NCBI GenBank assembly: GCA_001516055.1 | Contig: LOEZ01000058.1 | Coordinates: 1-64,000 of the forward strand | Direction of reading: 5' to 3' | Source: Gracilibacter sp. BRH_c7a | GTDB taxonomy: Bacteria; Bacillota; Desulfitobacteriia; Desulfitobacteriales; Syntrophobotulaceae | DNA: 64,000 nt | In this document: positions 17,238 to 35,533 of the stretch, piece by piece | How the letters are laid out: the number at the start of each line of letters is the position of its first letter | How positions within the stretch are numbered: position 1 is the first letter of the stretch | Notes under the pieces: generated by a model | Database searches by the model: none | Told to the model about the DNA's origin: nothing | What the model saw: the letters and a program-made list of their open reading frames with translations, nothing else | Position numbers and translations under genes: made by a program

Positions 17238-18998
17238 CTATACAGTTTTTCTGTGTTGAGTATGCAGTAGTTCCTGGGCTCTCGGGCTATATGGTTCTTG
17301 AAGATACTCTTTATATAGCGCACTTATAACTTCATTATCATTAGGCTTACTCGTTGCTTTACCTTCACTTTGCCCATAAAGAGCTTCCAGACGTTTCTGA
17401 AGAATTTCTAAGGTTAGGGGTCGGGGCTGTCCTCCACCATTAACACAGCCGCCAGGACATCCCATTACTTCAATAAAGTGATAGGGGGATTCACCTTTTA
17501 CGATCTGATTCATTAAGAACTCAGCACCTCGGAATCCGCTTGTAACTGCAACCTTAATAGTTACACCATCCAAGTATTGATAAGCTTCAAGAGGATTCTC
17601 TATTTTTAACTCCATGTCCATAGTCTGATCGAATCCTGCTATAGAAGTAACCTGAAGCTTGTTAAAGGGAAGCTCCCGACCTGTAACCATTTCATATACG
17701 GTACTGAGAGTAGCTTGCATGACTCCACCAGTGACTCCGAACAATTCAGCAGCTCCTGAAGAGAGACTGAAGGGCTGATCGAATTGGTTTTTACTGAGAT
17801 TTCTTAAATCAATCCCCGCTTCTTTAATCATCCGGGCCACTTCTCTGGTTGTTAGAACAGCGTCCACATTGGGCAGTCCATTGTTCTGCATTTCCGGTCT
17901 CGTTATCTCAAACTTTTTGGCCGTACACGGCATGACTGATACAACATATGTTTCACTAAGGTTCATATTCATCTTTTCAGTATAATGAGATTTGGCTAAA
18001 GCACCAAGCATAAGATCAGGAGATTTAGTTGTTGAGATATAATCCAATTCTTCAGGGTACTTATTCTCTACATACTTGATAAAGCTGGAACAACAACTTG
18101 TTACTAGGGGTAACTTTGCTTCATTACCGGCTTGTGTTGTCTTTAGCCTATTTAGGAGTTCAGTGGATTGCTCCACAACTGTCAAGTCAAAAGCAGCATT
18201 CGTATTAAAGATGTCATCAAAACCCATTTCACGGAGACAAGATACTAACTCTCCCGCCAGTGGTGTTCCTGGCTCGTAGCCAAACTCTTCCCCTATTGCC
18301 ACACTTACCGCTGAAGACAGCTGAACAACAACACGTTTATTCTTATCACTAAGGGCCTGCCAAACATTGTGAATCTCATCCGTCTCTTTAATTGCTCCAA
18401 CTGGGCAGACTACTGTGCACTGACCGCAATAGGTACAATCCACGGTATTAAGAGGTAAATCCATAGCTGTATTGATAACAGTCGAGAAACCTCTGTTATG
18501 GGCACTCAAAACACCAACATTCTGAATATCATTACAGACTGTAACACACCTGCGGCATAGGATACATTTATTCATGTCCCGGGTAATGGACGGTGATATA
18601 TCTACTTTGCTCACCGTAGTTTTCCCTGCAAAACGCGCTTCTGTAACCCCTAATCGAACTCCCATGTCCTGTAGTTCACAGTTCTTGTTGGTCTCACAAC
18701 TCGGACAATCTTGGAGATGGTTTGACAGAAGAAGCTCGTAGTTGTTTTTCCTAACCTTGCGAACTTTTTCGGTATTCGTGTGTACAACCATCCCTTCTCT
18801 AACTTCAGCCATACAGGAAGCTTGCAGATTTTTTACGCCTTCAACCTCAACCACACATAATCTGCACGATCCGAACTTATGCACTCCCTCTAAGTAACAT
18901 AGGTGAGGAATGTCAATATTATTTTGTTTTGCAGCTTCAAGAATGGTCGTTGAGTCAGGAACGCAAACCGATTTATTATTAATTGTTAAGTTTATCAT
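17238..18998 (-). CDS. hydA: [FeFe]-hydrogenase catalytic subunit (HydA-type, divergent active-site surroundings)
   Basis: 586 residues. N-terminal [2Fe-2S] domain (Cys34, 45, 48, 62); His-Cys [4Fe-4S] (His94, Cys98, 101, 107); two [4Fe-4S] motifs (Cys145-155 and 188-198); then the H-cluster domain. H-cluster motifs are TSCCSSF (302-303), MPCTAKK (358) and EVMGCPGGCVNGGG (514, 518), so all four cluster cysteines are present. Two things differ from well-studied enzymes: the usual CCPGW/CCPAW is CCSSF, and the acidic pair before it (usually EE) is E276-Q277, putting Gln where the proton-transfer Glu normally sits. The gene follows hydB by 9 bases. It may oxidise or produce H2, or have a changed activity. 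Confidence 0.88.
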   Translation of the reverse strand: MINLTINNKSVCVPDSTTILEAAKQNNIDIPHLCYLEGVHKFGSCRLCVVEVEGVKNLQASCMAEVREGMVVHTNTEKVRKVRKNNYELLLSNHLQDCPSCETNKNCELQDMGVRLGVTEARFAGKTTVSKVDISPSITRDMNKCILCRRCVTVCNDIQNVGVLSAHNRGFSTVINTAMDLPLNTVDCTYCGQCTVVCPVGAIKETDEIHNVWQALSDKNKRVVVQLSSAVSVAIGEEFGYEPGTPLAGELVSCLREMGFDDIFNTNAAFDLTVVEQSTELLNRLKTTQAGNEAKLPLVTSCCSSFIKYVENKYPEELDYISTTKSPDLMLGALAKSHYTEKMNMNLSETYVVSVMPCTAKKFEITRPEMQNNGLPNVDAVLTTREVARMIKEAGIDLRNLSKNQFDQPFSLSSGAAELFGVTGGVMQATLSTVYEMVTGRELPFNKLQVTSIAGFDQTMDMELKIENPLEAYQYLDGVTIKVAVTSGFRGAEFLMNQIVKGESPYHFIEVMGCPGGCVNGGGQPRPLTLEILQKRLEALYGQSEGKATSKPNDNEVISALYKEYLQEPYSPRAQELLHTQHRKTV

Positions 18999-19007
18999 TT
19001 TCTCACC

Positions 19008-22000
19008 CTACCTCCTGTCACAGCGTAAACACCGCATTGATTCGGCAATCGCTTTAAGCTTATGGTATCCTCTGCCTACTTCGGCGAAGGATTTTTTCCT
19101 TATTTCTGGAGCAAGAACTTCCATTTCATATCTTTCATGTTCATGCAGCTCATCGTTATCCGTTGGCAATGGATAATTAACGGCTTCACCTTTATGGAGG
19201 ATTCCTTTACCTCCCAGAAAACGGTCGATTGCTGCAGCTGCTTTTTTTCCATCAGCAATGGCATGGATCGCTACATCTGGTCCTCTGGCTGCATCCCCGC
19301 CAGCAAAAACGCCTTCTAAAGTTGTCATCTGACTATCTTTATTAGTAAGGAGTGTTCCCCATTTTGTAGTACTAACTTCGTTAGTATCAATAAACGGTAG
19401 CTCTGTAGACTGACTAACCGCCGGAATCACTGTGTCAACTTGCAGACGGAAAGTAGATCCCACCTGGGCTTGTGGTCTTTTTCTTCCGCCTGAATCAAAT
19501 AATCCCAGCTCCATCTTGACACATTCTATTTCGGCTATCTTATCTTGGCCGATGAAACGCACTGGGGCTACCAGTGGCATTATTTCTATTCCTTCTTCGA
19601 TTGCTTCATGGATTTCTCTTATATCTGCAGGCATATCATCTATTGTTCTTCTATAAAGAAGCATTACTTTTTGGGCGCCCTTCCTTAAGGCCGTTCTGGC
19701 TGCATCCATCGCCGTGTTTCCTCCACCAATGACAGCTACAACATTCCCCACTTGAACCTCTTGACCAAGATTTACGCTCCGTAAAAAGTCAAGACCATGT
19801 ATTACTCCCGCTAGCTCTTCACCGGGAACATCTATTTTATTAGCGACCTGGCTTCCTGTGGCTATATAAATAGCATCATGCTTGCTTCTTAACTCTGAGA
19901 ATTGTATTTGTTTGCCGATTTCCGTATTAAGATGAATATTGACACCGGCCTGTTTTATTAGCGTAATCTCCCGGTTTAGAATATCATTCGGTAATCTATA
20001 TTCTGGAATACCAAATGCCAAAACTCCCCCAGCCAACCCATGTGCTTCATAAACATCAACCTGGTATCCTAACTTTGCTAAATAATACCCGCAGGTCAGT
20101 CCTGAAGGTCCAGCTCCGATAATCCCTATGCTCTTTCCATTTTGGGGTAAGCCAGTCTCTTCATGAAGAAGACTATCCTGATTTTCAAATGCACAATCAG
20201 AGACAAATCTCTTCAAATCGGCTATGGCAATCGACTGATCGAGTTGGGCTCTGCGGCATTTGCTTTCGCAAGGGCGGGTGCAGATTCTACCACATACTGC
20301 TGGGAATGGATTTTCCCTTCTAATAAGATGATAGGCATCAATATATTTGCCCACTGAAATCAAGCCCATATATCCAGGGACGTTAATTCCTGCCGGACAA
20401 GCATTCTCACAAGGAGAAACTACCAAATCAGCACAAGCTCCGGCACGGCAGTATTTATTGAAAATATGCTCTTCGTATTCCTGGCGGAAATACTGAATCG
20501 TGCTTAAAATCGGATTGGAAGCATTTTCGCCGAAACCACACATTGCCGATAATTGGATAGATTCACTTAGTTCTTCAAGAAGTTCGATATCCCCTACTTG
20601 TCCTTCACCCTTGATAATACGCTCTAGTATTTCTAAGAGTCTTTGAGTTCCTATCCGACATGGGGTACACTTTCCACAGGACTGACTTTGACTGAATTCC
20701 AGCGACCGTCTTGCTGCCTCTACCATACAGCTGTCCTCATTCAGTACGGTCAGTTCACCGGAATTCATTATCTCCTGGAGTATCCCCCAAGAATCATAAC
20801 TCATAGGAGAATTCAGTAAACTTTTCGGTATCAATTGTCCGGAAGGACCTCCTACGCGAACTGCTTTGAGTGATTTGCCACCTGGAATACCTCCGCCAAT
20901 TTTATATATCACATCTCCGAGGCTCATGTTCAACGGTACTTCAATAATTCCCTTATGGACAATATCACCTGCCAGGGAGAACACAATCGTTCCTTTATTG
21001 GTATCTGTTCCATACTGGGTATACCAATTAGCTCCTTTATTTATAATCGATGGTACACGGGCGAAAGCTTCAGCGTTATGGATAATAGTTGGTTGAGAGA
21101 AAAGCCCGATTCCAGGTGTAGAGGATATCTTATCCTGGGGTTCGGCTCGTCTTCCTTCTATAGAAACAAAGAGAGAACTGTCTTCACCGTATACAAAGTT
21201 CCCGGCTCGGAGATAGATTTCTAGGTCGAAATCGAAACCGCTTCCCAAAATATTATTCCCTAGTAAACCATATTTCCTTGCTTCTTCGATAGCCAGGGAG
21301 AGATTATCACAGGTGAGTCCGTACTCAGGACTAAGATAAATATAACCCTTTTTGGCCCCTATTCCATAACCTGCGAGGATCATGCCTTCAAGTACACTAT
21401 GTGGATCGCCTTCAAGGATGGTGTTGTTAATGGAAATCTTAGAATCTCCATCTCCGGTCTCACAGACTATATATTTCGGGTCACTCTTTACCTTCATCGC
21501 TTGTTCCCAGGTAATACCGATGGGAGTACCGCCATCACCTCGTCCTCTTAAGGTAGATTTCTTAACTTCTTCAATCACTGCTCGGTTATCCATGCTCTTC
21601 AGAACTTTAACCACAGCAGAATAGCCGTCTTTGGCAATATAAGCCTCTATGGAAGAATAATCAATAATTCCGCAGTTCTTCAAAGCGACCTTCACTTGAT
21701 ATCTTAAAAAATCAATATCTGTTATTTTGGGAATATTCTCATCCAGTTCAGGATCGAAGAATGTGTACTCTTCTTTCACTTGTCCATCAATGATATGAGC
21801 CTGAAATATCTCAGCCACTTTCTCAGAATTAAGTTGGGTATATAATATTTCATCCGGCATAATTACCATCACCGGTCCATGAGCACATATCCCCATACAA
21901 CCAGTCTCTATAATCACCACTTGGTTTTCCAAATGATTTTCTCTTATCAGTTTCGCAACTGTATTTTTCACTTCATCACCCTGTGATGAAGTGCACTTTA

Positions 22001-22106
22001 TTCCTCCACAAATAAGTATCTGGTATTTAAATGTTTTAAGTTCTTCATGATAACTTCTTTTAATTGTTTCTAAATCTTCAAGACTTTTTATCTGAGCTGT
22101 AAGCAT
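19008..22106 (-). CDS. hydB: HydB/NuoF-like subunit fused to a GltD-type FAD/NADPH module
   Basis: 1032 residues. About 25-105: thioredoxin-like [2Fe-2S] domain (CGGIKC, CMGIC). About 150-545: NuoF-like domain whose [4Fe-4S] ligands (Cys477, 480, 483, 523) are intact. From 566: GltD-type module with N-terminal Fe-S cysteines (CENACPAG, CGRICTRPCESKC), FAD motif GIIGAGPSGLT near 661 and NAD(P) motif GGGNTAMDAA near 794. It ends with SMRCLRCDRR. The usual HydB C-terminal 2x[4Fe-4S] ferredoxin domain is absent, replaced by this module. NuoF flavin-site motifs are unusual: GRGDGGTPIG for GRGGAGFPTG, ETGDGDSK for the NADEGDPG type, and YGEDSS for CGEETA. Such fusions occur in Bfu/Stn-type transhydrogenases and hydrogenases; NADPH use is likely but unproven. 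Confidence 0.9.
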   Translation of the reverse strand: MLTAQIKSLEDLETIKRSYHEELKTFKYQILICGGIKCTSSQGDEVKNTVAKLIRENHLENQVVIIETGCMGICAHGPVMVIMPDEILYTQLNSEKVAEIFQAHIIDGQVKEEYTFFDPELDENIPKITDIDFLRYQVKVALKNCGIIDYSSIEAYIAKDGYSAVVKVLKSMDNRAVIEEVKKSTLRGRGDGGTPIGITWEQAMKVKSDPKYIVCETGDGDSKISINNTILEGDPHSVLEGMILAGYGIGAKKGYIYLSPEYGLTCDNLSLAIEEARKYGLLGNNILGSGFDFDLEIYLRAGNFVYGEDSSLFVSIEGRRAEPQDKISSTPGIGLFSQPTIIHNAEAFARVPSIINKGANWYTQYGTDTNKGTIVFSLAGDIVHKGIIEVPLNMSLGDVIYKIGGGIPGGKSLKAVRVGGPSGQLIPKSLLNSPMSYDSWGILQEIMNSGELTVLNEDSCMVEAARRSLEFSQSQSCGKCTPCRIGTQRLLEILERIIKGEGQVGDIELLEELSESIQLSAMCGFGENASNPILSTIQYFRQEYEEHIFNKYCRAGACADLVVSPCENACPAGINVPGYMGLISVGKYIDAYHLIRRENPFPAVCGRICTRPCESKCRRAQLDQSIAIADLKRFVSDCAFENQDSLLHEETGLPQNGKSIGIIGAGPSGLTCGYYLAKLGYQVDVYEAHGLAGGVLAFGIPEYRLPNDILNREITLIKQAGVNIHLNTEIGKQIQFSELRSKHDAIYIATGSQVANKIDVPGEELAGVIHGLDFLRSVNLGQEVQVGNVVAVIGGGNTAMDAARTALRKGAQKVMLLYRRTIDDMPADIREIHEAIEEGIEIMPLVAPVRFIGQDKIAEIECVKMELGLFDSGGRKRPQAQVGSTFRLQVDTVIPAVSQSTELPFIDTNEVSTTKWGTLLTNKDSQMTTLEGVFAGGDAARGPDVAIHAIADGKKAAAAIDRFLGGKGILHKGEAVNYPLPTDNDELHEHERYEMEVLAPEIRKKSFAEVGRGYHKLKAIAESMRCLRCDRR

Positions 22107-22130: not shown

Positions 22131-22634
22131 TTAATACTTAGCTAATATGGTTTCTAATTTATCAGGATTAACCTGTTTGTAAACAACATCATCGATCATC
22201 ATGGCAGGAGCCAGACCACAGGCACCTATACAACGAGCAATATCTAAGGTATACTTCCTATCCTCGGTGGTCTCACCTACTTGAACCTTTAGAATATCTT
22301 CTAAGCGGTCAACCAGTTTCTTCCCCCCTCTTACATAACAGGCGGTCCCCATACAAACTCTAATTGTATGTTTTCCTTTAGGTTGAGTAGAAAAGAATGA
22401 ATAGAAGGTAATTACGCCTGAGACTTCTGCAAGAGGTTTATCCATTCCCGCGGCAATGAATCTCTGCAGTTCCAGAGGTAAGTAGCCGTAGATATTTTGG
22501 GCAGCATGGAGAACTTGAATAAGGCTGCCTGCTTGATTTTTATACTTAGCAATGATTTCAGCAATCTTTTCATACTTTTGTTGATCTGTTTCTTGATCAC
22601 AACCACATTGGCATTTTGTAGCTTCGCAGTTCAT
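22131..22634 (-). CDS. hydC: HydC/NuoE-type [2Fe-2S] subunit
   Basis: 167 residues, the NuoE (24 kDa) thioredoxin-like subunit that passes electrons within bifurcating hydrogenases and complex I modules. The [2Fe-2S] ligands are in CMGTACYVRGG (Cys94, Cys99) and CIGACGLAP (Cys135, Cys139). An additional N-terminal Cys-rich stretch, MNCEATKCQCGC, precedes the usual domain and could bind another metal centre or act in assembly. It is the first gene of hydCBA, 24 bases ahead of hydB and 67 bases after the Ldh2-type gene on the same strand, so the hyd genes may be read from the upstream locus too. Confidence 0.93.
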   Translation of the reverse strand: MNCEATKCQCGCDQETDQQKYEKIAEIIAKYKNQAGSLIQVLHAAQNIYGYLPLELQRFIAAGMDKPLAEVSGVITFYSFFSTQPKGKHTIRVCMGTACYVRGGKKLVDRLEDILKVQVGETTEDRKYTLDIARCIGACGLAPAMMIDDVVYKQVNPDKLETILAKY

Positions 22635-22701: not shown

Positions 22702-23763
22702 CTATACCGCAAATAATTCTGTTTTCAGATTAAGCTTAACGGCAACGGAAGCAAACTGTTCTCTTAAATCTAAATCCATTGCTATCCCCTGAGTAAAGAT
22801 TGCCTGTTCCCTTTCCCATTCCCTTTCACCAGGTAACTTAATCGCCTCAAATCCTGGTGCCCGAGAAAGATTCTTGATTTCGGACACGAAAGTTTCAGTT
22901 CTTTCTTCATATTCGGATTCACCCAGGAAGCTATCAGCTTTAATCAGTACCATAAAATGACCGACATTTGCAGGTTCTTCACTGGCACTATACTGCCAGG
23001 CTACCCCTTTACCATAACCCGCTCCCGTAAGTACCCCCGAAAAATGTTCAGCCATCAGACTTAAGGCTGCTCCTTTAGGTCCGGCTATAGGAAGGAGAAC
23101 TCCTGCTAAGGCAGCTTTGGCATCCGTTGTAGGATAACCTTCTTGGTCTAAAGCCCAACCTTCAGGAATCTCCTCACCCTTTTGAGACGCCCTGATAATT
23201 TTACCCCTTGCAGCTACGCTGGTAGCCATATCTACGATAATATGCGGTCTACTTTTTCTTGGCATCCCAAAAGCTATGGGATTTGTTCCGAAATAAGGCT
23301 CTTTACCGCCAAACGGTGGGGTTGCGGGAGGGCCGTTGGAAAGCAGGATGGAAACGTATCCCTCTTCAGCCGCTTTTTCACAATAATAGGTTGAAATACC
23401 AAAGTGATTGCTATGTTTGACCCCTAAGACGCAGACTCCTATTTCGTCTGCTACCCCAAACCCTTCCTGCAACGCCTGGAGCATTACGACAGAACCTAGT
23501 CCATTATCTCCATCCACGGCAAGTACTCCCGGTAATGCCTTCTTTATGGATATCTGGGGTTGAGGATTGACCAACCCTTTTTGTATCCGCTGGAGATAGA
23601 CAGGAAAACGACTCAAGCCATGACTTGAGATTCCTTTCATTTCTGCTTTAAGCAGGTTATCCGTTACGATCTCTGCGTCAGGCTCTGGTACACCACTTAG
23701 AACGAAGGCTTCTCGCATAAATATCTCTAGATCATTGACTCTAATGACCTTTGAATCTCCCAT
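22702..23763 (-). CDS. Malate/L-lactate dehydrogenase-family oxidoreductase (Ldh2/ComC type)
   Basis: 353 residues of the non-Rossmann NAD(P)-dependent Ldh2 family, which oxidises 2-hydroxyacids such as malate, sulfolactate, ureidoglycolate or 2,3-diketogulonate. Typical motifs: SHGLSRFPVY with the conserved His, SNHFGIS, FGTNPIAFGMP and VDMATSVAARGKI. The family is certain; the substrate is not, because members differ by subtle changes. The neighbours (AbrB protein, DapA-type aldolase, Tct transporter, dehydratase) point to a role in hydroxyacid breakdown. Confidence 0.88.
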   Translation of the reverse strand: MGDSKVIRVNDLEIFMREAFVLSGVPEPDAEIVTDNLLKAEMKGISSHGLSRFPVYLQRIQKGLVNPQPQISIKKALPGVLAVDGDNGLGSVVMLQALQEGFGVADEIGVCVLGVKHSNHFGISTYYCEKAAEEGYVSILLSNGPPATPPFGGKEPYFGTNPIAFGMPRKSRPHIIVDMATSVAARGKIIRASQKGEEIPEGWALDQEGYPTTDAKAALAGVLLPIAGPKGAALSLMAEHFSGVLTGAGYGKGVAWQYSASEEPANVGHFMVLIKADSFLGESEYEERTETFVSEIKNLSRAPGFEAIKLPGEREWEREQAIFTQGIAMDLDLREQFASVAVKLNLKTELFAV

Positions 23764-23806
23764 TTAACCCACTCCTTTTATCTCTAATCGATAGTCAGAA
23801 TCTAAT

Positions 23807-24841
23807 TCAAGCCAATAAGGCTGCAATAACAGGAATACTTAGAATAATTGTTAACACTCTAACTAATTGCATGATACTGATTTTCAAGGTATCTGCTTCC
23901 ATTTCTTCCCCGAGAACCAACATCTGACTAAGTCCTCCAGGAGCCGATCCCAGTAAGCACGTAATGGTATCCCAATTCGTCATATGACGAATGAACCATC
24001 CAACAAAAAGGTTACCAAGAACCACAATTACAGAAAAACCTATGATTGGTAGAATCATCTCCTGAATCTTTTGCAGCATTATGGGCGAGAATTCTAGGCC
24101 AATCGTGACTCCTACTCCAAGAAGAGCAAATCTCATTACATTACGAGGGAATACATATTGCTCACGCAGTAAGATATTTGTCAATCCTGTGGCTAGCATA
24201 GCACCGACCACTCCTCCACCAGGAAATCCTACTGTCAGAAGAATTATCCCTCCCGTGATTCCAATAGCGTAGACTAAGATTCTGCGCAGCGAATACTCTT
24301 GTTTTTTTGCTGATACTTGGGAACTTTCTTCTTGTAAAGAAATTTGTTTGCCCTTAACAATCTTGGCTATTATCGGGATGACACTGACAATTACAATGAG
24401 TCGTACAAACTGAAAAGTGGATACAATGGCTATCTCGGAATCATAAGAAAGTGCCAATACCGTCATCTCAGTAATTCCACCGGGAGCTGCTGAAAAAAGA
24501 GCCGTCGCAAAATCAGTTGTAAAGTTTCTGATTAAAAAGGTCATAACCGCTGTTGAAGCCATTGTATAGATAGCAATTACCAGAGAAGATCTCCAAATAC
24601 TTCTTATGTCCCGAAGATTTTTGTGGTTGATCTTAGCTCCAACAGACAAACCAATTATGATCTGGAAACAATTGATTATGCTCATGGGAAGTTCAGGTAA
24701 TCCTGCACCTAGGATCTGGATAAGACCAATGGAGACCATCGGACCCATAATTAATGGAGCAGGCAGCCGTAACTTGGTGAAAACCCAGTAACTTACCACT
24801 GCCAAACCAACAATCAAACTGACTTGCGTAATAAAATCCAT
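23807..24841 (-). CDS. AbrB-family membrane protein (putative transporter)
   Basis: 344 residues with about ten hydrophobic segments and an internal duplication. SAAPGGITEMTVLAL followed by FQFVRLIVIV in the first half is repeated as GSAPGGLSQMLVLGEE followed by MQLVRVLTIIL in the second. This is the AbrB (ammonia monooxygenase-like, AidB regulator) membrane family, often found beside tripartite tricarboxylate transporters; its transport role is presumed, not shown. It lies between the Ldh2-type and DapA-type genes, behind a hairpin. Confidence 0.85.
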   Translation of the reverse strand: MDFITQVSLIVGLAVVSYWVFTKLRLPAPLIMGPMVSIGLIQILGAGLPELPMSIINCFQIIIGLSVGAKINHKNLRDIRSIWRSSLVIAIYTMASTAVMTFLIRNFTTDFATALFSAAPGGITEMTVLALSYDSEIAIVSTFQFVRLIVIVSVIPIIAKIVKGKQISLQEESSQVSAKKQEYSLRRILVYAIGITGGIILLTVGFPGGGVVGAMLATGLTNILLREQYVFPRNVMRFALLGVGVTIGLEFSPIMLQKIQEMILPIIGFSVIVVLGNLFVGWFIRHMTNWDTITCLLGSAPGGLSQMLVLGEEMEADTLKISIMQLVRVLTIILSIPVIAALLA

Positions 24842-24896
24842 TATTTTATAGTCCTTCTTCCTGAATAATCAAGATCAAATAAACAATATTCTTATT

Positions 24897-24922
24897 TCAG
24901 GTGGGGTTTTACCCCCACCTGA
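24897..24922 (-). terminator. Hairpin between the DapA-type and AbrB-type genes
   Basis: TCAGGTGGGG/CCCCACCTGA, 10-bp perfect stem with 6-base loop, just after the aldolase stop. The T run lies on the plus-strand side only, so on the minus strand it is more likely an attenuator or RNA stabiliser than a full terminator. Confidence 0.6.
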
Positions 24923-24936
24923 ATCTTTTTTTATCT

Positions 24937-25821
24937 TTATTTACTCTTCGCTTTAGCCAAAATATCAGCGAGCTGTTTTCTTTCTGATTGGCCTAACGGT
25001 AATAACGGTTTACGAGGTTCACCGCCATACAGCCCTTGCATTTCTAGTGCTGCTTTTAAACCAGGAACACCCCACCTTGCAGTTACTGCATTATTGATAT
25101 CAAGTAATTTAAGCTGGAGGTTCTTTGCTTCATCATGTTTACCAGCTAGAACAAGTTCCTGCATTTCTGCACATTCATTGGGCAGTACGTTAGCTAAAGC
25201 AAGCGTTCCTCCTGTAGCTCCGAGAGCTAAACTGGGATACAGAAAACTTGCAGATCCAGCGAAAACAGCAAAGTCTTTAGGAGTGTTGTTGATAATCTCT
25301 GCGATCTGGACAATATTTCCGCCCGAATCTTTTACTCCCATAATATTGGGATGCTCTGCTAACTCTGAAACTAGTTTGGACGAGAGATTAATAGTAGAGT
25401 TTCCTGGCATGTTATATAGGATTAGCGGGATGGGGCTGGCATCAGCCACATCTAAGTAAAAACTTTTATTCAGGGCATCTGTCATCGCCCGTTTGTAATA
25501 ATTGGGACTTAAGATTAAGGCAGCCTTAGCTCCCGCTTCAGCAGCATACTTCGTCAATTCAATCGTTTCTTTGGTCGATTCACATCCGGTTCCGGCCACA
25601 ACAGGTTTCTTGCCGTCAGATAATTTGCAGACTGCACTGATTAATTTCCTTTTTTCTTCTGGACTCAAGACCACAAATTCTCCATTAGAGCCTAAAACCA
25701 CGATTCCCGCTAGTTTTGAACTAAGCCAAAAGTCCATATTCTCAGCCAATTTATCAAATGCTAATTCATCATTTTTAAAAGGTGCTGGTATAGGAGCATA
25801 TATTCCTTGCAATTTATACAA
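24937..25821 (-). CDS. Dihydrodipicolinate synthase-family lyase (DapA/HOGA-like aldolase)
   Basis: 294-residue TIM-barrel class I aldolase. Schiff-base Lys is in GVKDSGG and the catalytic Tyr in YNMPGNS; GSNGEF corresponds to the GTTGE substrate loop of DapA. The family includes 4-hydroxy-2-oxoglutarate, KDG and other 2-oxoacid aldolases, and the catabolic setting (Tct transporter, IlvD/Edd dehydratase, dehydrogenases) argues for a degradative aldolase instead of lysine synthesis. TTG start at 25821 with AGGAGGG seven bases upstream. The substrate cannot be assigned. Confidence 0.88.
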   Translation of the reverse strand: MYKLQGIYAPIPAPFKNDELAFDKLAENMDFWLSSKLAGIVVLGSNGEFVVLSPEEKRKLISAVCKLSDGKKPVVAGTGCESTKETIELTKYAAEAGAKAALILSPNYYKRAMTDALNKSFYLDVADASPIPLILYNMPGNSTINLSSKLVSELAEHPNIMGVKDSGGNIVQIAEIINNTPKDFAVFAGSASFLYPSLALGATGGTLALANVLPNECAEMQELVLAGKHDEAKNLQLKLLDINNAVTARWGVPGLKAALEMQGLYGGEPRKPLLPLGQSERKQLADILAKAKSK

Positions 25822-25905
25822 AATTAGCCCTCCTTATTATTTGGATATGGACACACCCACTCGATTCCAGGTATTCCTTTTCAGGAGGGAATGTAGTCCA
25901 AACAA

Positions 25906-26328
25906 TTATCGCGCACTTCCATGAAATCCCAAAGAAAGATTGGCGGAATGCGGCTTTAATCCCACTTCTTTGCAAATGCTCTGAACATTATCAATGGGAC
26001 CACTGACAATCACAGAGAGTCCTATTTCTTCCTCTTTAAGGCGCTTTAATACTTTTACTACCTTTTCCCTTTCATGGAAACAACACATGACCGGAGAATT
26101 ATCTTCTGTTTTAGCTATAAGTTCTTGAGGATCAAGACCCATGGTCAGGTTCTCTTGAGTAGTTAGTGATCCAAGATTAGTCGGCCCTTCTTCAAAGATA
26201 ATCTCCAGGGTGCGCTTAACTCTTGGGGCACAACCCACATGGTTTATACCCATTGCCGGTCTGGAAATCAGAACGTAATCATCCTGAAAAGTATCTTCCG
26301 ATCCAATACGGTGTAAGGAATGTGTCAT
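25906..26328 (-). CDS. MTHSLHR-family small protein, short form (unrecognised; module A)
   Basis: 140 residues, no family I can name. It is clearly homologous to the first 135 residues of the 29130-29759 protein: MTHSLHRIG at the start, GINHVG near 28, GPTNLGS near 48, a Cys near 82, GLSVIVSGP near 103, then CKEVGLKPHSANLSL near 119. It ends right after that block and lacks the CGHG...CxC domain of its paralogue. The fold looks alpha/beta; His5, His30, Cys82 and Cys119 are shared by both copies. It starts 2 bases after the stop of the partner iron-sulfur gene, so translation is coupled and the two probably act together. Confidence 0.8.
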   Translation of the reverse strand: MTHSLHRIGSEDTFQDDYVLISRPAMGINHVGCAPRVKRTLEIIFEEGPTNLGSLTTQENLTMGLDPQELIAKTEDNSPVMCCFHEREKVVKVLKRLKEEEIGLSVIVSGPIDNVQSICKEVGLKPHSANLSLGFHGSAR

Positions 26329-26330
26329 CT

Positions 26331-27053
26331 CTATTCCTCCTTCAGAGGCCTTCCCAGCCCAACGTTGATTTTCATGTTCTTGGAAGGCTTAATGCCTATT
26401 TTCTCTAATCTCTCCACTACCGGTAATGTCCCATCAGGTTCAAACCTGGAGATTAAAGCCCAGGAAAAGATACACTTGGCTTTACTGGCTGTTTCAAATA
26501 TCTTAGTACAAATCTCTTCAAGATTCTCTTGTGGGATAACGAATTCTACAATCGCCGAGAGAACCTTTTCATTTCTAACGTCTTCTTTTATTATCCCAGT
26601 ACGTGCATCTTCCATGAGAAAAGTAAGTGGATTCGCTGCTTCAAACTGGATGCCCTCTTCTGCCAACGCCTTGGTAATCACTTCTACATCTCCAAGGCGC
26701 GTACCCACACCTGGGCGTCCAAACTCTAAGGCGATACCAAAGAATCCTCGCTTAAAACGAGCTGTCACATCATTTGTTTTTACTTCCTCAGTACCCCTAC
26801 CCCGAACACCGGTATTCTCATGTTTGGAAGTAGGGTCACTGAATACTTTCCTTACAGAACGCGGCCACTCCATGGTCTCTGGTGGCTCATAAATCGCCTT
26901 AACCGGACATTTGCTTTGCCGGATACAGATTCCACATTCCACGCATTCATCCCAATTTATTCTGGAAGTATCTTTTCCCCTCTCTATCGCCCCCATGGGA
27001 CAATAGGGAAGACATTGACCACACCCAACACACAATTCTTGTCTAATTTTCAA
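26331..27053 (-). CDS. 2x[4Fe-4S] protein with conserved C-terminal domain (unrecognised; module A)
   Basis: 240 residues. An N-terminal bacterial-ferredoxin domain has CVGCGQCLPYCP and CVECGICIRQSKCP, giving two [4Fe-4S] clusters. After a linker comes a motif nearly identical in the paralogue at 29773-30588: GRGTEEVKTNDVTAR (about residue 84-98). It is followed by EFGRPGVGT, NPLTFLMED, VLSAIVEF and a C-terminal NVGLGRPL. The pattern of strands and helices suggests an ACT/ferredoxin-like fold, but I cannot name the family. TTG start with AGGAGG. An electron-transfer partner of the following MTHSLHR protein is plausible. Confidence 0.82.
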   Translation of the reverse strand: MKIRQELCVGCGQCLPYCPMGAIERGKDTSRINWDECVECGICIRQSKCPVKAIYEPPETMEWPRSVRKVFSDPTSKHENTGVRGRGTEEVKTNDVTARFKRGFFGIALEFGRPGVGTRLGDVEVITKALAEEGIQFEAANPLTFLMEDARTGIIKEDVRNEKVLSAIVEFVIPQENLEEICTKIFETASKAKCIFSWALISRFEPDGTLPVVERLEKIGIKPSKNMKINVGLGRPLKEE

Positions 27054-27122
27054 GCCTAGTCCTCCTTGGAACCTAGTGTAAATACTTTCATCATGTAAGC
27101 TGTAAACTAATGCAAAAACCTG

Positions 27123-28628
27123 TTAAGCAGTTTTACTCTTCAAGAAGTACTGAATCCCTTTTTTAACCAAAGGATATAAGACGGCTAGGATAGCAATAAC
27201 CATGATGGTGCCGGAGATTGGTCTTGTAAAGAAGATTGCCGGATTTCCTCCAGAGATAATAATGGATTGTCTCAAGGAAGTCTCCAGGATGTTCCCCAGA
27301 ACTAAGGCTAGGACCATGGGTGCTGCAGGGTATTCTAACTTCTTCATGAAGAAACCAAAGACCCCGAAGCCGATTGTCAGGCCTACATCAAACATACTGT
27401 TATTCAGGCTGTAAGATCCGATAAGAATGAAGCTCATCACCGTGGCACTCAAAACAGGTCTTGAAACATTTAGAACTTTAACGAATAAAGGCACAGCTAG
27501 AATTGCTAATAATAAAAGAAAGACATTACCGATATACATACTACCAATCAGACCCCAGACAAAGTCAGGATTGCGATCGAAAAGTAAAGGTCCTGGTCGT
27601 AAGCCGAACATCATCAGAGCACCAAGCATAATGGCCGTGCTGCCTGACCCCGGAACACCCAGCGTCAGTAAAGGCACCATAGCACCGATTGAGGCAGAAT
27701 TGTTCGCAGCTTCTGGAGCAGCAACCCCTTCGATAACACCTGTCCCGAATTCTTCACTGCGTTTGGAAGTCTTCTTCGCTACTCCATAGGTAATAAAGGA
27801 AGCAATCGTGGCACCGGCACCAGGAAGCATCCCGATAAAGAAACCAATCCCTGTACTCCTTAAAATATGTGCCCAGGCATTTTTCCAATCCTCTTTAGAT
27901 GGAAGAAGTTTACGCCAAGCAACATCTTTCTTATCGATCTTTATAACATTACCATCGCTTCTTGCGGTAAGAATCTCAGCAATACCGAAAAGGCCCATGG
28001 CAACCGGAATGAAATCTAAACCCTCATATAAATGATAAGTACCAAAAGCAAAGCGAGGAATACCTTGTACCAAATCCAGTCCAATAGTAGCAAAGAACAA
28101 TCCCAGCAACGCTGATAGAAAACCTTTGGAAGGATATTTGCCTGTCATCCCAGCAATGGTTGTAAGACCTAAGATCATCAGAGCAAAATATTCAGGGGGC
28201 CCAAACCTTATGGCAAATTCTGCTAAAGCGGGGGCTAAAAACATAAACGCAATCACACTGATAGTTCCACCGATAATGGAAGCAAAAGCCGCCATCCCTA
28301 ATGCTTGCCCGGCTCTTCCCTTTTTGGCCATAGGGTAACCATCAAGAGTGGTCATAACCGCTGCAGAATCACCAGGTGTGTTAATGAGAATAGATGTAAT
28401 AGATCCTCCGTACATTGCTCCATAGTAAATTCCCGCTAGCATAATAATTCCTGAAATCGGATTGGCTCCAAAGGTTAAGGGTAGGAGGACGGCGATTCCA
28501 GCAGAAGGTCCCAGACCTGGAAGTGCCCCGACGAGCGTACCGAAAATAACTCCAACTAGGCAATATACTAAGTTAATGGGATCATTGGCTACAGACAGCC
28601 CGAAGAGTAAATTTTGTATTGTTTCCAC
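27123..28628 (-). CDS. tctA: Tripartite tricarboxylate transporter, large membrane subunit TctA
   Basis: 501 residues, about twelve membrane segments, the main channel subunit of TTT-family carriers. Typical signatures are GALPGLGPSAGIAVLLPLT near residue 35 and its second-half counterpart GMLPGAGATIASF, a Gly/Pro-rich repeated motif. GTG start behind AGGGGGTGA. It is followed upstream by tctB but separated from tctC by the module B genes, an unusual split order. The cargo is a carboxylate, identity unknown. Confidence 0.95.
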   Translation of the reverse strand: METIQNLLFGLSVANDPINLVYCLVGVIFGTLVGALPGLGPSAGIAVLLPLTFGANPISGIIMLAGIYYGAMYGGSITSILINTPGDSAAVMTTLDGYPMAKKGRAGQALGMAAFASIIGGTISVIAFMFLAPALAEFAIRFGPPEYFALMILGLTTIAGMTGKYPSKGFLSALLGLFFATIGLDLVQGIPRFAFGTYHLYEGLDFIPVAMGLFGIAEILTARSDGNVIKIDKKDVAWRKLLPSKEDWKNAWAHILRSTGIGFFIGMLPGAGATIASFITYGVAKKTSKRSEEFGTGVIEGVAAPEAANNSASIGAMVPLLTLGVPGSGSTAIMLGALMMFGLRPGPLLFDRNPDFVWGLIGSMYIGNVFLLLLAILAVPLFVKVLNVSRPVLSATVMSFILIGSYSLNNSMFDVGLTIGFGVFGFFMKKLEYPAAPMVLALVLGNILETSLRQSIIISGGNPAIFFTRPISGTIMVIAILAVLYPLVKKGIQYFLKSKTA

Positions 28629-28640
28629 TTTGTCACCCCC

Positions 28641-29093
28641 TTAAAATCCAAAAATTCCTTTAGGTAATGGAACCGCAAGCACAAAGACAAAAATTCCATA
28701 TAAGAAAACTGGCGTAAGTACTGTTAGTCCAACTATGGTTTTCCAACTCTTAGTTCCCATGAGCTTAGCAATACCACCTACCATTAAACCTAGGGCTACG
28801 AGAAGTCCAGTTATTGGAGTGATTATGACTAGAACAATAGCACTACCGATAACGATGTAAAAATCATTGAATTCTCCAGGCTTGAATGGATTAGCCATTT
28901 TGCTGGCGAAACCTGTAAACGTTTTTATTAATGGAATGAGGGCTACCAGACCTATTAAAATACCTAACCAAAAGGGCAAAAATCCAGGGCCTGGAGTTCC
29001 TTCAACCATATAGTCGAATTGCAGTGATTGCTGGATGATAACAAGTGCAAATATAATTATCAGGATACTGGCAACACGATTTGCCATCCGCAT
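28641..29093 (-). CDS. tctB: Tripartite tricarboxylate transporter, small membrane subunit TctB
   Basis: 150 residues with four hydrophobic helices (VASILIIIFALVIIQQS, FLPFWLGILIGLVALIP, then a long double segment). Length, topology and place immediately before tctA (12-base gap) identify it as the small TctB subunit, whose sequence is poorly conserved in general. The motif GTPGPGFLPFW after the first helix is typical. It works with TctA and the lipoprotein TctC. Confidence 0.9.
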   Translation of the reverse strand: MRMANRVASILIIIFALVIIQQSLQFDYMVEGTPGPGFLPFWLGILIGLVALIPLIKTFTGFASKMANPFKPGEFNDFYIVIGSAIVLVIITPITGLLVALGLMVGGIAKLMGTKSWKTIVGLTVLTPVFLYGIFVFVLAVPLPKGIFGF

Positions 29094-29129
29094 TATTTAT
29101 AACCTCCTTTTTTAGTTATTTAACAATAG

Positions 29130-29759
29130 CTATTTGTTTGGAGCATATTTTTCAAATAATTTTTCAGCCCGCTCCGTATTATAAATTCCACATATACATA
29201 GATGACCGATATTTACAGTCGCTTGCTGAGGAGAAAGTTCCCCTCGTTTCACTTTCTCCATTGTTTGTTCAATTAAAGGCCTTCCGACTAAACCATGACC
29301 ACACATCGTAACCAATTCTAAAACCTCTTCGGAAGGAAGTTTGTCTTTTTTACCCCAGACATCCAGAGATAAGTTTATCGAATGGGGTTTGATACCATAT
29401 TCTTTACACATTTTAAAAGTTTCCTTGGTAGGCCCGGAAAGAGTCACTGACATTCCAGTATCTAATTCTTTAATCTTTTTGATAGCAGCAAATGCTTTCT
29501 CTTTGGTAGCAAAGTTACAGCGGACACGTGGTACCTTTGTAAATCCCTCACGTATTTGCTCCACAGTTACTCCTGAGAGAATTGTTCCTCTTTCATTGGA
29601 TCCAATATTGGTTGGTCCTATTTCCCAAACGGCCTCAAGAATCTTAATCATACCCTCTTTCGATCCAATATGGTTTATCCCGGATGCCGCGGTAACCAGC
29701 AAGGTAAAATCATTTTCGAGGTATTCATCTGTTCCTCTACGATGTAATGAATGAGTCAT
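29130..29759 (-). CDS. MTHSLHR-family protein with C-terminal CGHG...CxC domain (unrecognised; module B)
   Basis: 209 residues. Residues 1-135 match the 140-residue module A protein (MTHSLHRRG, GINHIG, GPTNIGS, GMSVTLSGP, CKEYGIKPHSINLSL). Residues 146-205 add a second domain, LVTMCGHGLVG...KRGELS...LCICGIYNTERA, the same domain that stands alone at 16710-17075. Shared Cys153, His155, Cys188 and Cys190 suggest a metal or Fe-S site. It starts 13 bases after its iron-sulfur partner. I do not recognise the family; a redox or metallo-enzyme function with the partner is the simplest inference. Confidence 0.82.
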   Translation of the reverse strand: MTHSLHRRGTDEYLENDFTLLVTAASGINHIGSKEGMIKILEAVWEIGPTNIGSNERGTILSGVTVEQIREGFTKVPRVRCNFATKEKAFAAIKKIKELDTGMSVTLSGPTKETFKMCKEYGIKPHSINLSLDVWGKKDKLPSEEVLELVTMCGHGLVGRPLIEQTMEKVKRGELSPQQATVNIGHLCICGIYNTERAEKLFEKYAPNK

Positions 29760-29772
29760 ATAAAATCACCCC

Positions 29773-30588
29773 CTAAGCCTCTCTCGAAATAACTAAAGGT
29801 CTGCCCATTCCCAGGTTGACTTTGGCATTCGCTCTGGGGGTCATTCCTAATTTTTCAAGTCCGGACAGAACGGGTATCGTCCCATCTTCATCGAAACAGC
29901 ATATAAGATCAAGAGAAAATACTGTATCTAGCTCATTCGCTACTTCTTTAATAGCTTCCAAAATTGTTTCCATATTTTCCAGTTTAGTGCGACATTCAAC
30001 AATGGCTGAAATCACTCTCTCTTGTTTGTACTCTTCTTTAAAAGTTCCTTTAATTGGATCTTCCATCAAATGGGTAAGAGGATTATCATGTTCATATTCC
30101 ACGCCAAGCTTGGCTAAGGCAATGGTCACTTTTTCAACTTCAACAAAGTTGGTACCAAGGCAAGGACGGCCCATTTCTATAGCTATGCCGATTTCACCTC
30201 GACAAATTCTACCTGTGACATCATTGGTTTTAACTTCTTCAGTTCCTCGGCCCGGTACTCCCGTGAGCTTATGGGAGGTAGCAGGGTTACTAAAGAAACG
30301 ACGTACTTCTCTCGGTGTTCCATCAATCTCATCCAATGGTTCATAAATTGCGTTATTAGGGCACCTGTTCACTTTTTTATAATGTTTTTTAAGGATTACA
30401 GAATCAGATGATGCACTATAAATAGCCTTCTCACCTGATTTGGCAAATCTATGCCGAATACAGTTACCACATTCAACACAGAGAACTTGATCAATAACTG
30501 CAACATCATCAACCATACTGATCGCATAATAGGGGCAATATGGTAAGCACCTGCCGCAACCACTACATTTTTCCTTGTCAATCAACAT
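29773..30588 (-). CDS. 2x[4Fe-4S] protein with conserved C-terminal domain, insert form (unrecognised; module B)
   Basis: 271 residues, paralogue of 26331-27053. The first cluster motif is CSGCGRCLPYCP. The second begins CVECGNCIRH but an insert of about 28 residues (SGEKAIYSASSDSVILK and on) comes before the last CPNNAIYEP, so the fourth ligand is displaced compared with module A. Then the same block GRGTEEVKTNDVTGR, EMGRPCLGT, NPLTHLMED and NLGMGRPL. ATG start with GGGGGAAT upstream. It is the first gene after the tctC terminator, so it may head its own transcript with tctB and tctA. Not a family I can name. Confidence 0.82.
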   Translation of the reverse strand: MLIDKEKCSGCGRCLPYCPYYAISMVDDVAVIDQVLCVECGNCIRHRFAKSGEKAIYSASSDSVILKKHYKKVNRCPNNAIYEPLDEIDGTPREVRRFFSNPATSHKLTGVPGRGTEEVKTNDVTGRICRGEIGIAIEMGRPCLGTNFVEVEKVTIALAKLGVEYEHDNPLTHLMEDPIKGTFKEEYKQERVISAIVECRTKLENMETILEAIKEVANELDTVFSLDLICCFDEDGTIPVLSGLEKLGMTPRANAKVNLGMGRPLVISREA

Positions 30589-30710
30589 TTTTTAAATTCC
30601 CCCTAGATCAAGTTAGACAGTTTCCGAACTCTCTCTTCTTCGTTATTGTTTATATCAGATAACCAAGACTTTTTTTATATGGTATTCATGAACAGACTAA
30701 CTTATGGTTA

Positions 30711-30746
30711 GAAAGAGGAGGCAGCACGTAAAGTGCCTCCTCTTTC
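30711..30746 (-). terminator. Strong stem-loop after tctC
   Basis: Thirteen-bp perfect stem GAAAGAGGAGGCA/TGCCTCCTCTTTC with a 10-base loop, 15 bases beyond the tctC stop. It separates the high-demand binding-protein gene from the membrane subunits. Confidence 0.8.
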
Positions 30747-30760
30747 TTAAGATTAGAAAA

Positions 30761-31768
30761 CTATTGTCCTACTTTGTCTAAATACTTAGCAAACATGTTA
30801 TTGATTCTTTCACTTGCTGCAGTGAATTCTGCTGCGTTCATGAGAGTCTCTTCCATAAAGTTGTCAGCTACGAACTTTTTCCATTCTGGAGTTGCTGCAG
30901 CTTTTAAGACCATATCTTCTAAGAACTTAACCTCATCATCAGAAATGCCAGAAGGTGCAACGATTCCACGAGTTTGAGCCATTACAATGTCATATCCTTG
31001 TTCCTTCATAGTCGGAATATCTTTAAGATCACCGCCTAAACGCTCTTCTGTAGTAACAGCTAATGCTCTAACTTTACCTGCTTCTAATTGAGCAGCAGCT
31101 TCACTTGGTCCTAAGATACCCCAAGAAGTATGTTGTCCAAGAATCGCTGTCATAACTTCTCCGCCACCTTCAAAAGGTACGTACTTCATATCCATACCAG
31201 CTAGATCTTCAAAGGCATAGAAGATGATAGCATCCACTGAAAGTCCGCTTGAACCACCAGCACTAACTTTACCAGCGTTAGCTTTAGCATCTTGAACTAA
31301 ATCATCTAATGTTTGGTACTTAGAATCAGCAGCCACCAAAATCAGGTTAGGGTCAACACATAATGCTGCAATATGAGTAAAATCTTTATAGGAAACAGGA
31401 GATTTTCCAGATAAAGGACCTGTGTAGAAACTGGAGCTAACAGTACTTAGCTCATAAGGATCTCCTTTATGGTCATTAGCTACGATGGACCAACCAATAG
31501 ATCCTGAACCACCAGGCTTATTGACAACAACGATAGGCTGTGGAGAAAACTTATTGTCTTCAATAACTTTTACAAGGGTACGAACGAAAACATCACTACC
31601 GCCCCCTGCGCCCATAGGTACCATCATCTCAAAAGGCTTCTCAGGGAAAGTTGATTCAGGCTCTGCAGGTGCTGTTGGTGTTGCGGCCGGGCTACTGCAA
31701 CCTACCATAGCAGTGAGGGCAAATAGACAGACCATAACAATTGTTATCCAGCGTGTACTTTTTTTCAT
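30761..31768 (-). CDS. tctC: Tripartite tricarboxylate transporter, substrate-binding lipoprotein TctC
   Basis: 335 residues. Lipoprotein signal peptide (WITIVMVCLFALTAMVGC) places it on the outer membrane face, followed by an Ala/Pro/Thr linker. The mature Bug-type binding protein has MVPMGAGGGSDVFVRTL, VVVNKPGGSGSIGW and VPFEGGGEVMTAILGQH, the loops that hold the carboxylate through two waters in this family. AGGAG precedes the ATG. The strong terminator after it and the split from tctBA are notable. Ligand not predictable. Confidence 0.94.
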   Translation of the reverse strand: MKKSTRWITIVMVCLFALTAMVGCSSPAATPTAPAEPESTFPEKPFEMMVPMGAGGGSDVFVRTLVKVIEDNKFSPQPIVVVNKPGGSGSIGWSIVANDHKGDPYELSTVSSSFYTGPLSGKSPVSYKDFTHIAALCVDPNLILVAADSKYQTLDDLVQDAKANAGKVSAGGSSGLSVDAIIFYAFEDLAGMDMKYVPFEGGGEVMTAILGQHTSWGILGPSEAAAQLEAGKVRALAVTTEERLGGDLKDIPTMKEQGYDIVMAQTRGIVAPSGISDDEVKFLEDMVLKAAATPEWKKFVADNFMEETLMNAAEFTAASERINNMFAKYLDKVGQ

Positions 31769-31850
31769 CTCTTTTACTCCTTTAATTTTTTTAAGTTTTT
31801 TTCTGGAATGGTAACAAGGAAACTAAACAATATCCCTCCCCTTATTAAGT

Positions 31851-31902
31851 ATCTCAGAGACTCTGTCCGTTTGATAGTGAAATTTGAGTCTCTCGCTGAG
31901 AT
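31851..31902. promoter_or_regulatory. Inverted repeat ahead of tctC
   Basis: ATCTCAGAGACTC at 31851-31863 pairs with GAGTCTCTCGCTGAGAT at 31886-31902 (4-base bulge), in the 208-base spacer between the dehydratase and tctC. It may be a terminator-like processing site or an operator. No -24/-12 promoter was found here. Confidence 0.55.
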
Positions 31903-31976
31903 TGTTTTACATTCCCCCTTTCTTACTAGTGCTTAATTTGGAAAATCAATCTATCAAAAGGTATATTTTTGACTAT

Positions 31977-33647
31977 TTATTCCAGAAGTGCTCCCTTATG
32001 AGCCTGTCCGACATTTCGGCTATACACTCCTAAGAAGCCTTTCTTTACGGGAGATTTCCGTGGAGAAAGCTTAGCTAAACGTTCAGATATTTCTTCAGCA
32101 CTTAATTGGATATCTAACCTCTTATTTTGGATATCTATTTCTATCAGGTCACCGTCTTGAACAATGGCAATTGGTCCTCCAACATGTGCTTCCGGTGAGA
32201 CATGACCAATACAAAAACCTCTAGTGGCACCTGAAAAACGTCCATCGGTAATCATAGCCACACTATCACCCAGTCCCATACCAGTGAGTAAAGCAGCCGG
32301 AATGGACATCTCTCTCATACCCGGTCCCCCAGCAGGTCCTTCATAGCGAATTACTAACACATCTCCAGGTTTAATCTCTTTATTCATAATATGATCAATC
32401 AAATGTTCTTCTGACTCAAAAGTCTTAGCTACTCCTACCTGTCTGGTGGGAGCTTCCTTGACACCACTCACTTTTATTACGGCTCCCTCAGGGGCAAGAC
32501 TGCCTTTAAGAACAACAATTCCACCTTTGGACTGCAAGGGATTATCGAGCGTCCTGATGGTATCCCATTTTCTTACTTCTCGTATATAAGAACTTATAGC
32601 GTTGCCGGTGACAGTAAATACGCCTTTGTTAATCAAAGGTTCAATTATTCCATATATTGCTCCGACTCCGCCTGCTTCATAAAAGTCCCATAAGGTATAT
32701 TTGCTGGATGGTTTATATTTAGCTACACAAGGGGTTGCTTCCGATATTTGGTCAATATCATCCAGAGTTAACTCGATTTCAGCTTCTTGAGCAATAGCAG
32801 ATAAATGCAGAACAGCGTTAGTTGAGCCACCGACAGCCATCAAAAAGCGCACGGCATTCTCAATATTTTCTTTAGTTATAATCTGTTTGGGAAGCAAGTT
32901 CTCACTGACCATCTCAACAATTCGTTCCCCTGTTTCTTTCGCTTGCCGCCTCTTCTCGGCGTAAACCGAAGGTGTAGTAGAAGTTCCAGGTAAACTCATC
33001 CCTAAGGCTTCAATGAGACAGCCCATAGTATTTCCGGTCCCCATCATCCCACAGACTCCAACTGTAGTGCAGGTATCCGTTTCAATAGATTCAAATAGTT
33101 CTTCATCAATAAAACCTTTTTTAAATGCCCCCATGGCCTCTTTGACATCGGACATAATCCGCTGCTCTCCCTTTTCATCGAAATGAGAAAGCATTGGACC
33201 GGGGGGCAGGAAAATGGATGGAATATTCAAGCGGGCTGCTGCCATGAGCATTCCTCCCGGGGACTTATCACAAGACGGCAAAAATACCAGTCCATCGAAC
33301 CCCCCAGAACCCACCATTACTTCGATCTCGGCAGCCACAACTTCCCTGCTGGGCAGAGAATAATGCATTCCTACACCCTGAGCAATCGCATCACATACAG
33401 CCACGGTATAGAACTCAACCGGAGTTCCACCCGCTGCCCAAATACCACTTTTAACGAATTGCGCTAATTCTTTATTAGGATAACTTCCAGGGTGCATTTC
33501 CGAATAGGAGACAACAACACCAATGACTGGTTTGCTAAGATCCTTCTTGGTATATCCTACAGACTTGAACATAGCACGGGGGTAAGCACCTTTTATCCCA
33601 TCAAACAACTCTTTAGAGTTACATAACATTTTCTTATCATCTTTCAA
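31977..33647 (-). CDS. IlvD/Edd-family dehydratase
   Basis: 556 residues of the Fe-S dehydratase family (dihydroxyacid, phosphogluconate and sugar-acid dehydratases). Motifs: [61 protein letters not shown] and [10 protein letters not shown]. The HPGS motif near residue 53 is the PG variant used by many anaerobe enzymes. [11 protein letters not shown] differs from the ACPGAGSCGGM of valine-pathway IlvD, and no other branched-chain gene is near, so a sugar- or hydroxyacid substrate is more likely. TTG start with AGGAGGG. It may supply a 2-oxo-3-deoxyacid to the DapA-type aldolase. Confidence 0.9.
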
Positions 33648-33698
33648 ACGTATTCCCTCCTGTCCAGAAATTTTTCTAATGGAGACATCCCTACTTAT

Positions 33699-34511: not shown

Positions 34512-34577
34512 GCTTTTTCCCCCTATCTAAGTTTTAAAGTATAAATGAAGTATTTCTTTTGCAGGGTTAGCACGCTT

Positions 34578-35462: not shown

Positions 35463-35533
35463 TTAACCTACATCTCCTCAAACGTTTACCATAGATATTT
35501 ATTTTTTAAACAAATTATGAAACTAATTTCCAC

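Follow-up and report, generated by a model that had tools for sequence, protein, structure and literature searches.

The HydABC locus and the architecture of HydB

The window analysed here, a stretch of 64,000 nucleotides from Gracilibacter sp. BRH_c7a, carries on its minus strand the three genes of a HydABC-type complex, with intergenic gaps of 9 and 24 bases from HydB to HydA and to HydC, respectively. The subunits and the modules of HydB are:

17238..18998 (-): HydA, catalytic subunit of the [FeFe]-hydrogenase (586 aa), with intact ligands and an altered second sphere
19008..22106 (-): HydB, NuoF-GltD fusion with an eroded FMN/NADH site, 1032 aa; open reading frame intact
22131..22634 (-): HydC, NuoE-like [2Fe-2S] subunit, 167 aa (PF01257, E=2.6e-51)
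21750..22106 (-): HydB residues 1-119, thioredoxin-like domain with the [2Fe-2S] B2-type ligands C33, C38, C70 and C74
21051..21749 (-): HydB residues 120-352, degenerate NuoF FMN/NADH core; 30/87 otherwise invariant residues changed
20466..20726 (-): HydB residues 461-547, NuoF [4Fe-4S] (B1) domain (PF10589, E=2.9e-31)
19011..20465 (-): HydB residues 548-1032, GltD module with Fe-S cysteines, the FAD motif GAGPSG and GGGNTAMDAA
21507..21545 (-): glycine-rich FMN loop, GRGDGGTPIGITW, compared with GRGGxGFPxGIKW
21423..21461 (-): FMN/NAD loop, ETGDGDSKISINN, compared with NADEGDPGAFMDR
21171..21191 (-): YGEDSSL, compared with CGEETSL
19647..19727 (-): NADP(H) motif of the GltD module, GGGNTAMDAARTALRKGAQKVMLLYRR, intact

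In Pfam terms HydB consists of a partial thioredoxin-like [2Fe-2S] domain, the FMN-binding Complex1_51K domain, SLBB, NADH_4Fe-4S, Fer4_20 and Pyr_redox_2. The GltD module sits in place of the ferredoxin-docking domain and is found instead of the C-terminal B3/B4 ferredoxin-like domain of HydB in the Bfu/HydABC type; all cysteines that bind the B1 (C477, C480, C483 and C523), B2 and HydC clusters of that type are kept. Both observations on HydB made in an earlier note were confirmed, namely the non-standard flavin/NADH motifs (GRGDGGTPIG at residues 188-197, ETGDGDSK at 216-223 and YGEDSS at 306-311) and a C-terminal GltD-type module with its own Fe-S cysteines, FAD motif and GGGNTAMDAA (794-803).

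The NuoF part has its best solved relatives in HydB from A. woodii and T. kivui, the GltD part in NfnA/StnC/NfnB and the GltD domains of NfnABC/StnABC/NfnB. Among the matches listed, no PDB chain combines NuoF and GltD modules in the order of HydB. A fold search with Foldseek confirmed the NuoF and GltD folds and nothing beyond. In AlphaFold2 models of eroded and intact HydBs alike, the pocket loops have low pLDDT values and closure of the pocket is not readable from them.

Intact fusions and the eroded clade

A second full-length NuoF-GltD HydB is present in the same genome, which is 65% identical to the first and carries GRGGGGFPAGIKW, NADEGDPGAFMDR and CGEETSL. Intact NuoF-GltD fusions were also found in many sampled genera of the host family, and a scan of 84,980 species, which demands an exact C-terminal match and thus gives lower bounds, added Ca. 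Dichloromethanomonas, Desulfosporosinus sp. UBA5188, Tissierellales, records from Spirochaetes and others. Intact fusions are widespread in the Firmicutes. Fusion and erosion are separate events, because the intact paralogue also has GltD in place of the C-terminal 2x[4Fe-4S] domain together with textbook FMN motifs; the fusion as the cause of the erosion was rejected, as intact fusions are common.

Eroded copies occur in five genomes: the one analysed here, that of Gracilibacter sp. LH_M27 from the same genus, and three from Desulfosporosinus, namely Desulfosporosinus lacus DSM 15449, sp. SRJS8 and the uncultured OKU5. The copy of LH_M27 ends at a contig end, and the full GltD module and HydA are missing there. 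In IQ-TREE trees of NuoF, GltD, HydA and HydC the eroded proteins grouped apart in each case (UFBoot 93-100), so that the eroded form is, as judged by these trees, a monophyletic HydABC paralogue. A sequencing or assembly artefact was rejected on the basis of five genomes from two families, including two RefSeq isolate records (D. lacus and SRJS8).

For the pair formed by the window and LH_M27, dN of the NuoF core is 0.243 in the eroded form compared with 0.048 in the intact paralogue, and dN of HydC is 0.073 compared with 0.045. The dN/dS ratios are about 0.05-0.23 across the main modules of the eroded pairs, where those with a dS of about 1-1.8 are near saturation and their ratios are rough, and 0.31 in one 54-codon sub-stretch of GltD in one close pair. 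A pseudogene is argued against by the ratios of the main modules and by open frames in all five genomes. Between the window and D. lacus, HydB is 66% identical and the other proteins of the cluster 70-88%, HydB being the lowest except for the compared part of HydA. HydB is evidently constrained, though less than its neighbours.

Neither a HydB-GltD fusion with an H-cluster nor a HydB without FMN was found in the open literature, which is weak evidence as subscription papers lay outside the search, and no biochemistry of any member of the eroded clade was found there.

Degradation of the FMN/NAD site

The residues named as FMN/NAD contacts in HydB of A. mobile are K177, N194, E197, F180, F307 and E287 (PMC8880783); in the window they correspond to T, E, D, Q, S and D, respectively. 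K177, N194, E197 and E287 are invariant among the intact HydBs with a residue at these positions (n=26-27), and F180 is naturally variable among them. In the eroded copies of Desulfosporosinus the contact lysine is R, the asparagine is retained and the glutamate is D or E, and HydB of OKU5 retains NADEGD. Loss of the FMN/NAD hub is thus graded within the clade, from mild in OKU5 to severe in the genus of the window.

Changes at otherwise invariant positions were counted with a leave-one-out control across the intact fusions. In the FMN core 34, 36, 23, 24 and 20% of these positions are changed in the five eroded proteins compared with an intact maximum of 6%, and in SLBB 16-32%, again with an intact maximum of 6%. 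The changes in NuoF are concentrated in the FMN/NAD loops as defined for HydB of A. mobile (Fisher p = 0.003-0.024 in tests that are mutually dependent, as the eroded sequences share their ancestry). Twelve near-invariant NuoF positions are altered in all five proteins, seven of them within the loops, including G223K and M226I. Every eroded member is altered at the NAD-loop and FMN-contact positions G223K, F225, M226I, K199 and N343, the last being His in 5/5, and further losses are lineage-specific.

The FMN/NAD site of the Bfu type is characterized by an AFM loop, Phe282 and GGPSG (PMC8880783, PMC7311640). The AFM loop is lost in all five eroded HydBs and reads ISI in the window; the Phe and GGPSG are retained there, as are G302, G307, E308 and D221. 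PF01512 scores 82 (the window), 94 and 116 bits in eroded HydBs compared with 153-160 in intact fusions, and the score of Pyr_redox_2 is unchanged between the two groups. The erosion goes beyond chance, because 30/87 FMN-core positions are changed compared with at most 6% in intact proteins and the pattern is common to four other genomes. Judging from the sequence, the nucleotide/flavin site of NuoF is really degraded in this HydB.

Modules that stayed conserved

In the FAD/NADP domain of GltD only 0-2% of the invariant positions are changed in the eroded proteins (2/84 in the window) compared with an intact maximum of 12%. The FAD motif, the GGGNxA motif for NADP and the Fe-S cysteines of a GltD/NfnB-type NADP(H) module are all present, and GltD is the sole intact nucleotide site left in HydB. 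Its motif points to a preference for NADP(H).

All cysteines that serve as Fe-S ligands are retained in the eroded complexes, including C33, C38, C70 and C74 in 5/5 HydBs. Those cysteines that did change, C43, C306 and C425 of HydB and C324 of HydA, lie outside the cluster-ligand motifs (assigned from the motifs). In HydC, 0% of the invariant positions are changed in the genus of the window (0/45 in the window, where all ligand cysteines are kept) and 7-18% in Desulfosporosinus, with an intact maximum of 13%. The Fe-S domain of HydA shows 4-6% in the eroded copies compared with 5%.

The altered H-domain of HydA

The H-domain of HydA shows the opposite picture, with 16-23% of the invariant positions changed in the eroded copies (37/160 in the window) compared with an intact maximum of 5%. 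Residues were assigned by alignment to CpI and to HydA of A. woodii and T. kivui. Two motifs stand out in the window:

18159..18176 (-): VEQSTE, in which the proton-relay residue Glu279 (CpI numbering) is Gln
18081..18101 (-): H-cluster motif L1, TSCCSSF, compared with TSCSPGW of the intact group

Where 17/17 intact HydAs have E279, the window has Q and the three Desulfosporosinus copies have A, so that the group A proton relay C299-E279-S319-E282-R286 is incomplete in them. Among the eroded HydAs L1 is TSCCSSF, SSCSPAW or TSCSPAL, and A230 is S or D. The H-cluster ligands of group A and the catalytic lysine are present in the window (C299, C300, C355, C499, C503 and K358), and M353 and M497 are retained in eroded HydA. 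At the position of CpI C300 the window has Cys, whereas the intact group and A. woodii have Ser. As a separate observation, HydA of intact fusions (e.g. L011:9019-10806), with TSCSPGW as L1, resembles A. woodii HydA1 in this Ser at a CpI ligand position.

TIGR02512 assigns the window HydA to group A (450 bits, cut-off 405.95), and NF040763, the model for NADH-dependent A6 enzymes, scores 745.6 and stays below its cut-off of 765, compared with 891 for the intact paralogue and 782-795, above the cut-off, for the Desulfosporosinus copies. Exchange of E279 for A or Q in CpI leaves less than 1% activity (PMC6226526). High hydrogenase activity of the eroded HydA is doubtful, because the H-domain is altered and E279 is changed to Q or A. 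Loss of E279 need not equal zero activity, as a different proton path has been reported for a sensory [FeFe] hydrogenase (PMC10407848).

Gene context

HydABC closes a co-directional run of 20 kb that begins with PdxA (37478):

22702..37478 (-): rest of the catabolic run, with PdxA-, IolO-, HIBADH- and IlvD-type genes, TctABC, a DHDPS-type gene, AbrB and Ldh_2
37528 (-): sigma54-like promoter TGGCATGAATATTGCT, upstream of PdxA
40302-42143 (-): sigma54 activator, PrpR_N/PAS

Direction and spacing suggest that the run is a single operon, putatively for the catabolism of a sugar acid. The gene context is common to all five genomes with an eroded copy, most of the run being kept in Gracilibacter LH_M27 and in Desulfosporosinus, where it is partly rearranged. 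HydABC is absent from the related sugar-acid cluster L119 (G034 C1:815000-834500) within the 19.5 kb examined, so that in some lineages HydABC seems to accompany the cluster as an accessory. The maturase HydG is present in the genome, and an Rfam scan of 14-40 kb gave no match.

The run also holds two pairs of Fe-S and uncharacterized genes. These paralogous pairs (25906-27053 and 29130-30588, minus strand) encode proteins of 140 aa and 240 aa (Fe-S) and of 209 aa and 271 aa (Fe-S); they match no Pfam or NCBIfam family beyond the ferredoxin part and are strongly conserved between families, and the 240-aa Fe-S type is found in 13/74 genomes of the order. Past HydA lies a 121-aa open reading frame (16710-17075, minus strand) with similarity to the 209-aa protein over the C-terminal domain of the latter; it has conserved cysteines and is 73-74% identical to copies in loci L120 and L121.

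Possible functions of the eroded complex

With confidence somewhat below even, we favour the explanation that the window complex is a divergent paralogue of the NuoF-GltD-fused HydABC, namely an NADP(H)-only, non-bifurcating offshoot of low turnover or with a sensory role. NADP(H) at GltD would now be its only soluble nucleotide partner and the use of NAD(H) would be gone; as the NAD loop is changed in 5/5 members and the FMN contacts unequally, NAD use might have been lost first. Bifurcation is unlikely and finds no support, because degradation has affected both the NAD loop and the site of the FMN that joins the branches, and a ferredoxin-docking domain is lacking; flavin-based bifurcation would presumably no longer take place. 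Relaxation in NuoF and the H-domain alike is in line with loss of a hub whose absence unloads both ends, and the conserved Fe-S domain of HydA suggests that electrons still reach this subunit. Its H-cluster, if still loaded, might turn over slowly or act as a sensor or valve, and the complex would probably balance NADPH from the surrounding sugar-acid catabolic genes. Electrons could pass from GltD to HydA by direct docking of the two or through weak residual binding of FMN. Against this explanation, the loss of FMN may cut GltD off from HydA, and the Desulfosporosinus copies, in which N216 is retained and K199 is replaced by R, may still bind FMN.

The earlier note had proposed that the nucleotide site moved from NuoF to GltD, which agrees with the degraded NuoF and with GltD as the sole intact site but not with the intact fusions, which keep both sites. 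Its bifurcating enzyme is not borne out; from its NADPH-linked bifurcating hydrogenase the NADPH link survives as the natural reading of the intact GltD. It took the fusion alone as not new, and it missed the altered H-domain of HydA.

It is unlikely that the complex is an active NADPH-dependent, non-bifurcating hydrogenase which lost the NAD(H) site alone and in which loosely bound FMN or a GltD-HydA contact feeds a working H-cluster. The retention of K358, M353, M497 and the H-cluster ligands typical of the group, the intact GltD, the maturase HydG and the loose binding of FMN even in intact StnB (PMC10482914) would all suit such an enzyme; the low activity of E279Q/A in CpI (PMC6226526), the altered H-domain and the substitution of all three FMN contacts K, N and E in the window speak against it. 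That HydA is a disconnected scaffold, with NADPH electrons reaching a different acceptor by way of the GltD clusters, HydC and the [2Fe-2S] domain, we regard as rather improbable. Loss of FMN would sever the branches (PMC8880783) and so explain why NuoF and the H-domain relaxed jointly, the genus of the window shows good conservation of HydC and the thioredoxin-like domain, and two uncharacterized Fe-S proteins lie in the same run; the Fe-S relay domain of HydA, however, matches that of intact enzymes in conservation, which suggests that electron transfer persists. We give just as little credence to a redundant duplicate in slow decay, retained by chance beside a useful operon. A canonical paralogue in the same genome, the rate at which HydB evolves, one of the highest in the cluster and with dN/dS above most neighbours, and the related G034 cluster without HydABC in the examined stretch would fit, but frames are open in all five genomes of two families, dN/dS is low, and the loss is restricted to specific sites with all cluster-ligand cysteines kept. 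A NuoF site that binds FMN/NADH in a modified way in a bifurcating enzyme of a new subclass is most improbable: G302, G307, E308, D221 and GGPSG are kept in the window and NADEGD in OKU5, but the AFM loop is lost in 5/5 members, G223K alters the NAD loop, the glycine loop is broken, contacts are substituted and the ferredoxin domain is absent.

Returning to the NADP(H)-only offshoot, a broader and more tentative possibility is that a conserved 'hydrogenase' no longer runs as one: the hub and proton relay would be disabled clade-wide, with the Fe-S wiring and NADPH module kept as an NADPH-linked sensor, valve or conduit in sugar-acid catabolism.

There is continuing debate on how HydABC-type enzymes bifurcate by means of only one FMN. 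The eroded clade offers natural variants of the FMN/NAD hub, together with an intact paralogue of 65% identity in one and the same cell, and D. lacus DSM 15449, an isolate and named strain, carries an eroded member. The eroded/intact pair allows one to ask whether FMN is needed to link NADP(H) with the H-cluster and which natural role an H-cluster lacking Glu279 has. In the fusions GltD occupies the place of the ferredoxin-like domain; the intact form may use NADP(H) for ferredoxin and might represent a type in which NADP(H) replaces ferredoxin in the HydABC core.

Comparison with known systems

The best PDB and Foldseek matches to the complex are FeFe-Bfu HydABC complexes (A. woodii, T. kivui and T. 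maritima), which have the same HydA, HydB and HydC subunits and the same sets of Fe-S ligands in HydA, B1, B2 and HydC. The window complex differs from them by GltD in place of the ferredoxin-docking C-terminal domain, by its degenerate FMN/NAD site and by the loss of E279 in HydA. In the related NiFe-HydABCSL, the H2 branch (via B1) and the B2/HydC branch come together at the FMN (PMC8880783).

The [FeFe] group A2 of HydDB (glutamate synthase-linked) likewise has GltD encoded beside HydA. By its rule, GltD without NuoF beside HydA (PMC5037454), this group was rejected for the window, as NuoF is present; the same rule gives A3.

StnABC/Nfn-Bfu (Sporomusa ovata, C. saccharolyticus and T. sibiricus) likewise combines a HydBC-type core with a GltD NADP(H) module, but it carries GltD in a third subunit (StnC/NfnA), lacks an H-cluster and bifurcates at an intact FMN site (PMC10482914). 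The intact NuoF-GltD HydABC (L011 of the same genome, Ca. Dichloromethanomonas and many Clostridia MAGs) shares domain order and partners with the eroded form at about 51-65% identity and, in contrast to it, retains the FMN/NAD motifs and E279.
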